Below, one piece after another: positions 21,003 through 26,787 of a stretch of DNA of 37,614 bases. The notes under the pieces were generated by a model, which did no database searches, was not told where the DNA came from, and saw nothing but the letters and a program-made list of their open reading frames with translations. Made by a program: the position numbers and the translations under genes. Origin of the DNA: Coriobacteriales bacterium (lineage in GTDB: Bacteria > Actinomycetota > Coriobacteriia > Coriobacteriales > UBA8131). Each line of letters opens with the position of its first letter. The first letter of the stretch is position 1. The DNA is taken from contig JAISGJ010000144.1 of the NCBI GenBank assembly GCA_031263105.1, positions 1-37,614 of the forward strand. The letters run 5' to 3'.

Positions 21003-21031
21003 TTGACAGATGTATGCTATACACATACAGT
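21003..21031 (+). promoter_or_regulatory. Promoter and operator of the antitoxin gene
   Basis: TTGACA (21003-21008) is a perfect -35, and TACAGT 17 bases later is a fair -10. In the spacer, TGTATG and CATACA form an inverted repeat, the usual kind of site for a ribbon-helix-helix antitoxin that represses its own operon. A strong AAAGGAG ribosome-binding site follows at 21047-21053. Confidence 0.6.
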
Positions 21032-21058
21032 GGTATTTGTTTAATGAAAGGAGTTGCG

Positions 21059-21340
21059 ATGAGTAACACAGCTTTAGTGCAGGCCCGCGTTGAGCCTGAT
21101 ATAAGGGATGCCGTTGACAGCATCCTTGCTGAGAACGGCTTAGACATACCCACTGCCATCCGCATCTATTTCGCAAAGATACTGCGCGTCGGCGGCATCC
21201 CCTTCGAGGTGCGCACCTATAATGCCGAGACCATAGCCGCGATGGGTGAGGCGAACCGCATCTCCCGCGACCCCAACGCGAAGTCCTACGCCAGCTTCGC
21301 CGAACTGGTGGCCGACTTGGACTCCGACGACAATGAGTGA
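21059..21340 (+). CDS. RelB/DinJ-family antitoxin
   Basis: A 93-residue protein. The first 50 residues show the ribbon-helix-helix pattern of RelB/DinJ: a short strand (ALVQARVEPDIRDAVDSIL), then AENGLDIPTAIRIYFAKIL. The C-terminal part is acidic (AELVADLDSDDNE), as expected for a segment that wraps the toxin. The ATG follows AAAGGAG by five bases. Its stop overlaps the start of the toxin remnant by eight bases (ATGAGTGA), the standard arrangement. Because the toxin is truncated, this is now an orphan antitoxin, possibly kept as a repressor or as protection against related toxins. Confidence 0.85.
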   Translation: MSNTALVQARVEPDIRDAVDSILAENGLDIPTAIRIYFAKILRVGGIPFEVRTYNAETIAAMGEANRISRDPNAKSYASFAELVADLDSDDNE

Positions 21341-23902: not shown

Positions 23903-24047
23903 CCACACCCCACTGTCATTCCGAGCCTGTCGAGGAATCTTCGACCGCGCCAGCGGTCGACCGCAGGCAGAGGCGTTTCTCGGCCTGCGGTTGGACACTG
24001 CGTGTCCAAGGATTCCTCGACAGGCTCGGAATGAAAGTGGGGTGTGG
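23903..24047. repeat. Palindromic cloverleaf repeat, copy 3
   Basis: The ends are ccacaccccactgtcattc and its near-perfect inverse, with one change (atgaaagtg). Inside: gaggaatct/ggattcctc, hairpin tcgaccgc-gcca-gcggtcga, a middle hairpin ccgcaggc...gcctgcgg, and hairpin ttggacac-tgc-gtgtccaa. It lies between the NrfD-GntR-slipin operon and the DUF6110-like gene. Bases 24048-24213 contain no gene I can recognise. Confidence 0.92.
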
Positions 24048-24213
24048 ACTGCTGTAATCTCTTTACTTTTCTCGGCGACCTGTGTACTATGTGGGACAAC
24101 GGAAGAGTTAGTGATTTCTAATTTTGTGGGCCCGGCGGAGGGGAGACCGGACTTGCGAGAGCCGCTGCTCTGCCAGAACTGCTGTCGTAACGGGATCGGG
24201 AAAGGAGCACCAC

Positions 24214-24552
24214 ATGGCTTTCAGCAAGGAGATAGGGCTTATCGCGGCCGGGTTCGCGCTCGGTACCATCGGCGTCAAGGCGGCGACCTCCGCCACCGCC
24301 AAGAAGCTCTGCGTGCAGGCGGTGTCCAAGGGCCTGCAGGCAAGGGCCGCAGGGCAGGACATCATAGAGCAGGCGAAGAGCAACGTCGACGACATCGTCG
24401 CCGAGGCGAGCTACCTGAACCAGCAGGAGGCGGCGGGCGCCACGGGGGCGGCAGGAGCGGAGGCGGCCCAAGAGGCCCCTGCGGGCGCAGGCGCAGAGAG
24501 CACCGTCAGGGCCGCACGCGGCACCGGCAGGAAGCGCACGAAGAAGAGCTAG
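24214..24552 (+). CDS. Small DUF6110-like protein upstream of a P-type ATPase
   Basis: A 112-residue protein. The N terminus MAFSKEIGLIAAGFALGTIGVKAATSATAKKL holds one hydrophobic, Gly-rich helix, followed by a helical stretch (QAVSKGLQARAAGQDIIEQA) and a low-complexity Ala/Gly/Glu segment ending in a basic tail (GRKRTKKS). The first half resembles the DUF6110 family as I remember it, found next to metal-type P-type ATPases, as here. The role is unknown; it could be a membrane-bound partner or assembly factor of the pump. AAAGGAG lies six bases before the ATG. Confidence 0.7.
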   Translation: MAFSKEIGLIAAGFALGTIGVKAATSATAKKLCVQAVSKGLQARAAGQDIIEQAKSNVDDIVAEASYLNQQEAAGATGAAGAEAAQEAPAGAGAESTVRAARGTGRKRTKKS

Positions 24553-24613
24553 GGAGACGACAACCAGTCATGGCACACCGTCTTCCGACACACAGGCATT
24601 GACCGTCGTCTCC
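24553..24613. repeat. Second palindromic family, short copy
   Basis: The ends ggagacgac and gtcgtctcc are exact inverses. The left part aligns with the left arm of 16323-16488 (shared TCAT.GCAC.CCGTCTTCCG), and the right part aligns with its right arm. The middle 100 or so bases are missing. It starts directly after the stop of the DUF6110-like gene and may act as a terminator-like stem before the ATPase gene. Confidence 0.75.
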
Positions 24614-24681
24614 TCAAGAAAGCAGCAACCCATGCCCACATGCCGTCTCCCGAGCCCGAAGGAAGGGTCGGTCGCCCCCTC

Positions 24682-26787
24682 ATGCGCCACACCGTAGAAC
24701 ATCGCATACCCGGTCGCCTCCGCGTGTCGCTCCACGGGCGCATCCCTGCGCCTGACGCCTACGCGCTCTCCGCCATCGTCGAGCAGTGGGAGGGCGTGCG
24801 CAGCCTCACCCTCTATCCGCGCACAGGCTCCCTCGCCATCGTCTACGACCCCGCCCTGCCGGATGCCGAACAGCGGCTGCTCGACCGCCTGGGGCGGCTT
24901 GCCGCAGCGGACGTAGCACAGCGTCGCCCCAGCGAGGCCCAGCTCCGGGCGCAGCCCCACCGCTTCGACCGCTCGCTCTCGGAGCAGATCGCCTGGCTCG
25001 TGCTGCGCCGCCTGGCCGCCAGGCTCCTGCTGCCGGCGCCGCTGCGGCTCGTCTACCAGATAGGCTGCTCGCTGGCCTTCGTCGCCGAGGCCGCACGCTC
25101 GCTCGCGCAGGCCCGCGTGGACGTGCCCGTGCTCGACGCGGCGGCCATCGCCGCCTCGCTCGTGCAGGGCAAAGGGGACGACGCAGCCTCGACCATGTTC
25201 CTTTTGACCCTCGGCGAGCTCATGGAGGAGCACGCGCGCGACCGCACCCAGCTCGAGCTCATCAACTCCCTCCTCGAGGTGCCGGAGCGGGTCTGGCTGC
25301 AAAGGCCGAAGAGGGCCGGCGGGGACGTCCTCGTCGAAGCCGGCGCACTGACAGTCGGCGACCGCATCGTCGTGCGCACCGGCTCGCCCGTCCCTGTGGA
25401 CGGCGCGGTCGTCTGCGGCCGCGCGCTCGTCAACCAGAACTCGCTGACGGGCGAGCCCCTCGCCATCGAGCGCAGCACGGGAGACAGCGTCTTCGCAGGC
25501 ACAGTGGTCGAGGAAGGGGAGCTCGTCATCGAGGTCACGTCCACCGTCGGCAACACCCGGCTCAGGCAGGTGGTGTCGCTCGTGGAGCAGTCCGAGGCGT
25601 ATCGCTCGAAGGGTCAGATACGGCTCGAGGACCTCGCCAACAGGTTCGTGCCCTACAACTTCCTCTACGCGGGCCTGCTCCTGCTGCTGACCCGCTCGCT
25701 CGCACGCGCCTCGACGGCCCTCATGGTCGACTACTCCTGCGCACTGAAGCTGACCGGCTCCATCTCGTCGCTTGCGGCACTGCGCGAGGCGGCGCGGGCG
25801 GGCATCACCGTCAAAGGGGCACGCAGCCTGGAGGAGCTTGCGCATGCCGACACGCTCGTGTTCGACAAGACGGGAACCCTGACCCAGACCACCCCGCAGG
25901 TGGCGGGCGTGATCGCCTTCGGGGCATGGGAGCAGCGCGAGGTCCTGCGCCTTGCGGCCTGCCTCGAGGAGCACTTCCCCCACCCGGTCGCCCGGGCCGT
26001 CGTCAACGAGGCGACCGCCCAAGGCCTCAACCATCGCGAGAAGCACGCGGCGGTCAACTACCTCGTCGCCCACGGCATCGCCTCGACGCTCGACGGCAAG
26101 CGCGTCATCATCGGCAGCGGGCACTTCGTCTTCGAGGACGAGGGTGTGCCCTACCCTGCCGCCAAGCGCCGCACGGTCGAGAGGCGGGCCGCCCATGGCT
26201 CCCCGCTCTTCCTCGCGGTCGATGGGGAGCTGGTCGGCGCCATCTGTATCAGCGACCCGCTCAAACCGGAGGTCGCCGCCACCGTCGCCGCGCTCCGGGC
26301 ACAGGGCTTCAGGCGTATCGTCATGCTCACGGGCGACAACGCCGCCACGGCCGCCCACATCGCCCGCGAGGCGGGCATCGAACAGTTCGAGGCCGACCTG
26401 CTCCCCGAGCAGAAGCATGCCTTCCTCGAGGGACTCCGCGCAGGCGGCGCCCGCGTGGTAATGGTGGGGGACGGCGTGAACGACTCGCCGGCGCTCAGCT
26501 GCGCCGACGTGGGAATCGCGATGGGCAACGGGGCCGCCATAGCACGCGAGGTCGCGAACATCACGCTGAGCAGCGGGCAGCTCGAGGACCTCGTGAGGCT
26601 CAGGCGCCTGGGCTGCGACCTCGACCGGCGCATGCGCCGCTCGTTTCGCTGGACCATGCTGCTCAACACGGCCCTCCTCGCCCTCGGCGGCCTGGGGCTT
26701 CTCCAGGCAGGCACCTCGTCTTTGATCCACAACGGCTCGACCGTGCTGCTCTGTGCGAACAGTGCCCGCTCGTATCAGATGGCCTGA
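24682..26787 (+). CDS. P1B-like P-type ATPase lacking the CPx motif
   Basis: A membrane cation pump of 701 residues. The N terminus (HRIPGRLRVSL) is a degenerate heavy-metal-associated domain without the CxxC. The actuator loop has LTGEP in place of TGES; the phosphorylation site is Asp395 in DKTGTLT; HFPHPVA matches the HP motif of P1B nucleotide domains; and GDGVNDSPAL is intact. The membrane motif normally CPC/CPH/SPC is instead DYSCALKLT (Cys353), so the ion cannot be predicted from known classes. The start is uncertain: ATG 24682 begins right at the family similarity, while ATG 24640 would add 14 residues. It is paired with the DUF6110-like gene. Confidence 0.88.
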   Translation: MRHTVEHRIPGRLRVSLHGRIPAPDAYALSAIVEQWEGVRSLTLYPRTGSLAIVYDPALPDAEQRLLDRLGRLAAADVAQRRPSEAQLRAQPHRFDRSLSEQIAWLVLRRLAARLLLPAPLRLVYQIGCSLAFVAEAARSLAQARVDVPVLDAAAIAASLVQGKGDDAASTMFLLTLGELMEEHARDRTQLELINSLLEVPERVWLQRPKRAGGDVLVEAGALTVGDRIVVRTGSPVPVDGAVVCGRALVNQNSLTGEPLAIERSTGDSVFAGTVVEEGELVIEVTSTVGNTRLRQVVSLVEQSEAYRSKGQIRLEDLANRFVPYNFLYAGLLLLLTRSLARASTALMVDYSCALKLTGSISSLAALREAARAGITVKGARSLEELAHADTLVFDKTGTLTQTTPQVAGVIAFGAWEQREVLRLAACLEEHFPHPVARAVVNEATAQGLNHREKHAAVNYLVAHGIASTLDGKRVIIGSGHFVFEDEGVPYPAAKRRTVERRAAHGSPLFLAVDGELVGAICISDPLKPEVAATVAALRAQGFRRIVMLTGDNAATAAHIAREAGIEQFEADLLPEQKHAFLEGLRAGGARVVMVGDGVNDSPALSCADVGIAMGNGAAIAREVANITLSSGQLEDLVRLRRLGCDLDRRMRRSFRWTMLLNTALLALGGLGLLQAGTSSLIHNGSTVLLCANSARSYQMA

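Follow-up and report, generated by a model that had tools for sequence, protein, structure and literature searches.

A pair of adjacent genes on contig JAISGJ010000144.1 of a Coriobacteriales bacterium (assembly GCA_031263105.1) raises the question of which ion is moved by a P-type ATPase whose fourth transmembrane helix (TM4) reads DYSCALK in place of the CPx motif, and of what is contributed by the small membrane protein encoded ahead of it. The contig was analysed over its full 37,614 nucleotides (nt), here called the window. An initial annotation of this DNA had held that the transported ion could not be predicted and that the small helical partner might be part of the pump. We consider it likely that the two genes form a fezAB locus, composed of a FezB-type P1B-6 iron pump and a PacL-like scaffold, FezA, which would form compartments if it behaves as in Clostridioides difficile. 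The cargo is probably iron, most likely Fe(II).

A P1B-type ATPase with DYSCALK in TM4

The ATPase gene (24682-26787, + strand) encodes 701 amino acids (aa) and was assigned as fezB-like, of P1B-6 type, from its match to TIGR01525, its alignment with C. difficile FezB, its place in a tree, and a structure model with fold matches. The match to TIGR01525 (heavy-metal P-type ATPase) reached 466.2 bits against a cut-off of 346.25, and by this family assignment the protein is a heavy-metal P1B P-type ATPase. Its start is probably at 24682 rather than at an in-frame upstream ATG at 24640 (+), which would give a 715-aa protein, because most aligned relatives begin at the Met of M-x(8)-PGR.

The DKTGT phosphorylation motif (25864-25878, +), the HP motif (first base 25981, +) and the GDGVND motif (first base 26467, +) were all located by motif search and are intact, as had been described. 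The actuator motif TGE(P) (first base 25447, +), found in the same way, had been listed as a peculiarity. TGE is the canonical actuator motif, and the residue after it in relatives is P, S or A, with a few others; TGEP was thus dropped as an oddity. The N-terminal ferredoxin-like domain carries PGRLR (24709-24723, +; alignments and model), both Arg residues of which were invariant in 15 aligned sequences and more than 90% conserved in an alignment of 13. The absence of CxxC from this domain, as first annotated, extends to the whole ATPase, in which the first Cys is residue 129, past the N-terminal domain. In TM4, DYSCALK (25729-25749, +; alignments) replaces CPx, and its D, S and C were invariant in both alignments, as were the H, N and T of HNGST in TM6 (26728-26742, +). 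HN in TM6 is named as a P1B6 feature (PMC9374683; here and below, citations by PMC number refer to the available excerpts of those articles). The ATPase combines HN in TM6 with SCA[LI][KR] in place of CPx in TM4, the latter being a P1B-6/FezB feature drawn from the sequences of the present analysis.

A structure model built from 13 sequences (predicted local distance difference test score, pLDDT, 77; predicted template modelling score, pTM, 0.61) was usable for the order of domains and not for details. In this model the N-terminal domain had the ferredoxin-like order strand-strand-helix-strand-strand-helix (beta-beta-alpha-beta-beta-alpha), about eight membrane helices were present in P1B order, and TM4 was broken right at DYSC. 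The closest PDB fold matches (4bbj, 7qbz, 7r0g and 4umw; 22-29% identity) were copper, cadmium and zinc P1B pumps, as were the best matches in a sequence search of PDB.

Kinship with fezAB of C. difficile

C. difficile depends on FezA and FezB for loading iron into membrane compartments. Ferrosome formation by the two proteins has been reported there, with iron stored in these compartments (PMC12574912), and FezB is described as part of this iron-storing system and has been called a putative transporter of ferrous iron (PMC12574912, PMC10979944). The genes are CD630_05910-05920 (PMC11651100). We located the locus by an ATPase search of 71 genomes from the family of C. mangenotii. Eight genomes there resembled the genus Clostridioides, and six of the eight gave an ATPase match at E ≤ 1e-256. 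One of the eight (G254) carried a sortase fragment that matched PDB 5gyj, a C. difficile sortase, at every one of 126 aligned residues, and was therefore taken as C. difficile; the sortases of the seven sibling genomes differ from it.

In this genome a 131-aa FezA and a 699-aa FezB, the latter with MVDFSCALK in TM4, are encoded side by side. In single comparisons the window ATPase was 38% identical to FezB over 701 aligned positions (2e-178), and its partner was 26% identical to FezA over 101 aa (E 4e-13); C. difficile FezA itself matched PF19605 (DUF6110) at 79.8 bits. Gene order agrees between the two loci, with a DUF6110 protein encoded next to and ahead of a P1B-6 ATPase, and both pumps have SCALK in TM4, HNxST in TM6 and an N-terminal GRxR domain. 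The loci differ in sequence, the identities being 38% for the pumps and 26% for the partners; Fur control and ferrosomes have been reported for that of C. difficile, and no strong regulator box precedes that of the window. Among the homologues that share this helix is C. difficile FezB, to which iron is assigned in print (PMC12574912, PMC10979944), and the view that the ion is not predictable was overturned on that ground. A known substrate in such homologues had been named as a possible refutation, and this holds in part: one has been proposed, iron for C. difficile FezB, and the excerpts gave no measured one. The sequence observation itself was correct, and judged by these comparisons the pair is a new example of the known FezAB kind and not an unknown pump.

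The same kinship was observed when 52 pumps, of which 28 are of odd composition, were placed in a quick maximum-likelihood tree, with support given by the Shimodaira-Hasegawa-like approximate likelihood ratio test (SH-aLRT) without bootstraps. Twenty-eight rows formed one clade (SH-aLRT 96), 27 of them having S/T-C in TM4 and the last DYACPIK, and the window ATPase and C. difficile FezB both fell in a 22-row clade inside it (SH-aLRT 100). Outside the FezB clade were CPx pumps, including the three further P1B ATPases of the window's own genome, all with a CPC helix, and a Peptostreptococcaceae group with DYSCG[IV]. P1B ATPases with DYSCG[IV][KR] in TM4 and HNxST in TM6 were seen in the family of C. 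mangenotii (L171-L184), four of them as tree rows outside the FezB clade. The DYACPIK member of the FezB clade is a Rhodobacter capsulatus ATPase (L100, 6001-8013), with A for S and P after C.

A contig scan with general P-type motifs gave, among the matches listed (at least 80 loci), 14 with the SC helix and one, that of R. capsulatus, with DYACPIK; a FezA-like gene lay just upstream in 13 of the 14 and not in L093. Of the 40 plasmid matches listed five were read; four had the SC helix, and the fifth had CPC and lay beside a DUF1490 gene. The same SC helix was thus found in other phyla. As a point of likeness to the fez operons of Pseudomonadota, the SCALK ATPases of Azospirillum, Vibrio, Arcobacter and Hahella belong to the same wider clade. 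On an Azospirillum brasilense plasmid (L077, 2682-6668), the SCALK ATPase is one of six genes, with two HMA2-like, two unannotated small and one YtxH-like, a cluster that may be a proteobacterial fez operon. The FezA profile found no match at the Azospirillum and Arcobacter plasmid loci. The five genes beside the Azospirillum ATPase are extra relative to the window pair, as is the cytochrome FezC among the fez genes of D. magneticus (PMC10979944); the latter species and R. palustris, with its six fez genes RPA2333-2338 (PMC12016538), are likened here by description only.

Linkage of pump and partner across the class

Among 246 sampled genomes of the window's class, which we infer to be Coriobacteriia, the ATPase (counted present at E ≤ 1e-100) was found in 80 and DUF6110 at Pfam level in 61. 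Both were present in 60 (Fisher p 1.5e-38, a descriptive value, the genomes being related). A DUF6110-like gene was directly upstream of the ATPase in 79 of the 80, and in the remaining genome the two genes were on two contig ends. The suggestion that the small protein belongs with the pump was borne out by this, and an inconsistent linkage, which had been named as a possible refutation, was not seen.

Pfam-level pairs on one contig were adjacent, on the same strand and with DUF6110 first in every case (59/59). A FezA profile started from the proteins of the window and of C. difficile found a FezA-like gene upstream at 77 of 78 class loci read; the profile was iterated on the same loci, which makes its E-values optimistic, and the Pfam-only 59/59 is the independent count. 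At the exception (L036) the ATPase locus begins at a contig edge and the DUF6110 gene stands at the very end of another contig. The two class genomes with the ATPase that were not read in detail (G177 and G205) have the pair adjacent as well, and in the single genome with DUF6110 and no ATPase (G073) the DUF6110 match was below the family cut-off. Seventy-seven of the 78 ATPases read (80 found) had D-Y-S-C and one had D-Y-T-C (L066). Because D-Y-S/T-C is conserved in all 78, the SC helix is not a matter of chance. The L061 ATPase has a G after the Cys of the TM4 motif.

Iron genes and a shared palindrome in relatives

Two links to iron observed in relatives are independent of the fez name, namely the neighbourhood of FeoB and a palindrome shared by fezA and feoB. 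In the SCA[IV] subgroup, 18 loci extended 3 kb or more ahead of the pair; FeoB, a ferrous iron importer, was encoded upstream on the same strand in nine of them, and two more had FeoB about 4.5 kb upstream, giving at least 11 of 18. These linkages are not independent events, because several of the FeoB-linked genomes are from one family.

In 47 non-redundant fezA promoters, kept after removal of near-copies and drawn from related genomes that are not independent, we found a 19-bp palindrome, roughly AGTTAACCTAAGGTTAACT. Its log-likelihood was 115.7, compared with 36 to 51 (maximum 51.4) in six shuffled promoter sets, which were searched with 120 seeds versus 250 for the real set. A matrix was made from 23 hand-picked fezA sites of the 47, mostly the better ones, and applied to the 1 kb ahead of feoB in 21 regions from 16 hand-picked genomes (15 with a SCALK-type pair and the window's own). 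The palindrome reached a score of at least 8 in 13 of these regions; 100 shuffles gave a mean of 1.64 and a maximum of 5. The coding part of FeoB, used as a control, gave 0 of 21. Since feoB is an uptake gene, sharing the palindrome with it suggests expression under iron limitation. A Fur-consensus scan before fezA was uninformative, with best scores of 8 to 13 of 19 across the promoters covered (C. difficile 12, window 10), and a textbook-consensus Fur box was set aside on those scores.

The partner as a PacL-like membrane protein

The partner gene (24214-24552, +) encodes a 112-aa protein that was assigned as fezA-like (DUF6110, PacL-like) from PF19605, the match to C. difficile FezA and its linkage to the pump. 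It matched PF19605 at 34.1 bits against a cut-off of 26, and was under the cut-off in a search with PF07371 (DUF1490, PacL; 15.3 bits against 28.4). At its N terminus the protein has a single hydrophobic helix containing G-T-I-G (residues 17-20), followed by VDDIVAEA and an Ala/Gly-rich tail, so that both a PacL-type GxxG membrane helix and an AEA cytoplasmic helix are present. The tail contains no His, no Cys and no PacL-type C-terminal metal-binding motif. Across 93 distinct FezA-like proteins, GxxG of the searched type occurred in 71 and AEA in 79, and 62 had no His or Cys in the last 40 aa. When the FezA profile was run against a single DUF1490 protein, from Rhodococcus, it scored 28 bits across the membrane and AEA region.

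The PacL proteins of Mycobacterium tuberculosis cluster via a GxxG membrane motif and hold the N-terminal domains of their pumps via EA repeats (PMC13043812). DUF6110 proteins are termed PacL-like in the same source, and FezA is described just as a membrane protein in the ferrosome literature excerpted. The window pair resembles PacL1/CtpC of M. tuberculosis (DUF1490 and a P1B6-like ATPase) in that a small single-pass protein with GxxG in its membrane helix and a Glu/Ala-type cytoplasmic helix is encoded with a P1B ATPase. It differs in that CtpC has CPC in TM4 and handles zinc, and in that the window partner is below the DUF1490 cut-off and is without a metal-binding tail.

By analogy with PacL, the FezA-type protein is probably a single-pass membrane scaffold, its GxxG helix predicted to self-associate and its cytoplasmic AEA helix to hold and stabilise the pump at the Cys-free N-terminal domain, which would cluster pumps into a patch or vesicle. 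The FezB-type ATPase is predicted to use the energy of ATP for carrying iron, most likely as Fe(II), out of the cytoplasm. If the pair works as in C. difficile, that iron would go into membrane compartments, or ferrosomes, for storage.

The two genes are separated by 129 nt (24553-24681), a wider gap than most relatives have, which also holds a 10-codon reading frame, MAHRLPTHRH. A hairpin in this gap with the stem GGAGACGAC ... GTCGTCTCC had a z of -0.86, and 41 of 200 shuffles folded equally well; a regulatory hairpin between the genes was rejected on this basis.

Probable iron storage and its alternatives

Several observations weigh against reading the window pair as fezAB. No iron gene adjoins the pair in the window, and its own assembly is a draft, 86% complete with 6.5% contamination. 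Among 31 SCALK-type loci with about 3 kb or more upstream, FeoB adjoins the pair in one, on the opposite strand (G173). The window has a palindrome copy (GAGTTAGTGATTTCTAATT, 24105-24123, strand not assigned) 109 nt before the fezA-like start, with a score of 6.1 that was equalled by 130 of 1000 shuffles and is not significant alone; the best score in the genome's own feoB region was 8.8, at a site outside the tested 1 kb. The window copy being weak and its own feoB unconvincing, the palindrome supports the family and not the window copy. Support within the class is from sequence comparison, an identity of 38% is no guarantee of the same ion, and the FezA likeness is low between proteins that are short and compositionally biased. 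In addition, the iron assignment in C. difficile was taken from excerpts of a review and of citing papers.

The alternative that survives best, which we nevertheless regard as unlikely, is a pump in the cell membrane that simply expels Fe(II) and, together with a PacL-like scaffold, forms an iron effluxosome that exports surplus iron and makes no organelle. PacL proteins do gather exporting P-ATPases into clusters within the plasma membrane (PMC9374683, PMC13043812), and the window locus has two genes, fewer than the six of the Azospirillum cluster or of the R. palustris fez set (PMC12016538). However, C. difficile has a two-gene locus of the same kind and is reported to make ferrosomes (PMC12574912), and a palindrome in common with feoB, an uptake gene, would fit storage better than export of a surplus. 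Transport of another divalent metal (Mn, Zn or Co) by a pump diverged from the iron pumps is more doubtful still, and we regard it as quite improbable. The clade alone does not fix the substrate; the related DUF1490/CtpC pair handles zinc (PMC9374683), and the window has neither iron-gene neighbours nor a strong palindrome. Against this, the pump shares both its TM4 and its TM6 motif with C. difficile FezB. The usual Cu and Zn/Cd roles can be covered by the three P1B ATPases with a CPC helix in the window's own genome. That SCALK reflects decay or a sequencing artefact in a degraded or mis-assembled CPx exporter is hardly credible: motif oddity and the draft assembly are all that speak for it, the catalytic motifs are intact, the helix recurs in other phyla, and a decayed CPx helix was rejected on the conservation of D-Y-S/T-C at all 78 class loci read.

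Taking the pair as fezAB, an unknown metal pump gives way to an iron-storage hypothesis that can be put to the test across many members of the class, with the shared fez/feo box as a regulatory handle. FezA gains a mechanism, based on likeness to PacL, with named residues (GxxG and AEA). If the relatives make ferrosomes, iron storage organelles would occur more widely than the handful of species mentioned in the excerpted literature suggests. A broader idea, which we put forward tentatively but as a real possibility, is that ferrosomes and mycobacterial effluxosomes share one principle, in which FezA is a PacL-type scaffold that self-assembles through GxxG and captures the P1B ATPase through AEA, the ferrosome being pump clustering carried to the extreme of a vesicle. 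Iron storage would then be widespread in the class (80/246 genomes) and switched together with ferrous uptake by one palindromic box. We found no literature joining FezA with PacL, the word ferrosome was absent from PMC9374683 and PMC13043812, and none of the 20 papers displayed out of 43 matches named PacL1 and ferrosome together; the original ferrosome papers were outside the search and may state the connection. Nor did we find literature, again with those papers outside the search, linking the ferrosome with Eggerthella, Collinsella or Coriobacteri. Mildly new are the spread of the pair in the class, the fez/feo box and, as a candidate mechanism, the direct FezA-DUF6110-PacL connection.

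Surroundings of the pair

The neighbours of the pair encode NrfD-like, GntR-type, SPFH, RelB-type and FAD reductase proteins, together with one protein without a family. An iron operon in the window was rejected, the neighbouring genes being of other families. A promoter and terminator scan found nothing on the + strand. The RelB/DinJ-type antitoxin gene is at 21014-21340 (+; TIGR02384). A long inverted repeat made up of ATTCCGAGCCTGTCGAGGAATC with its complement was seen by eye at about 23918-24043 in the intergenic region upstream of the pair and is similar to repetitive extragenic palindromic (REP) elements.

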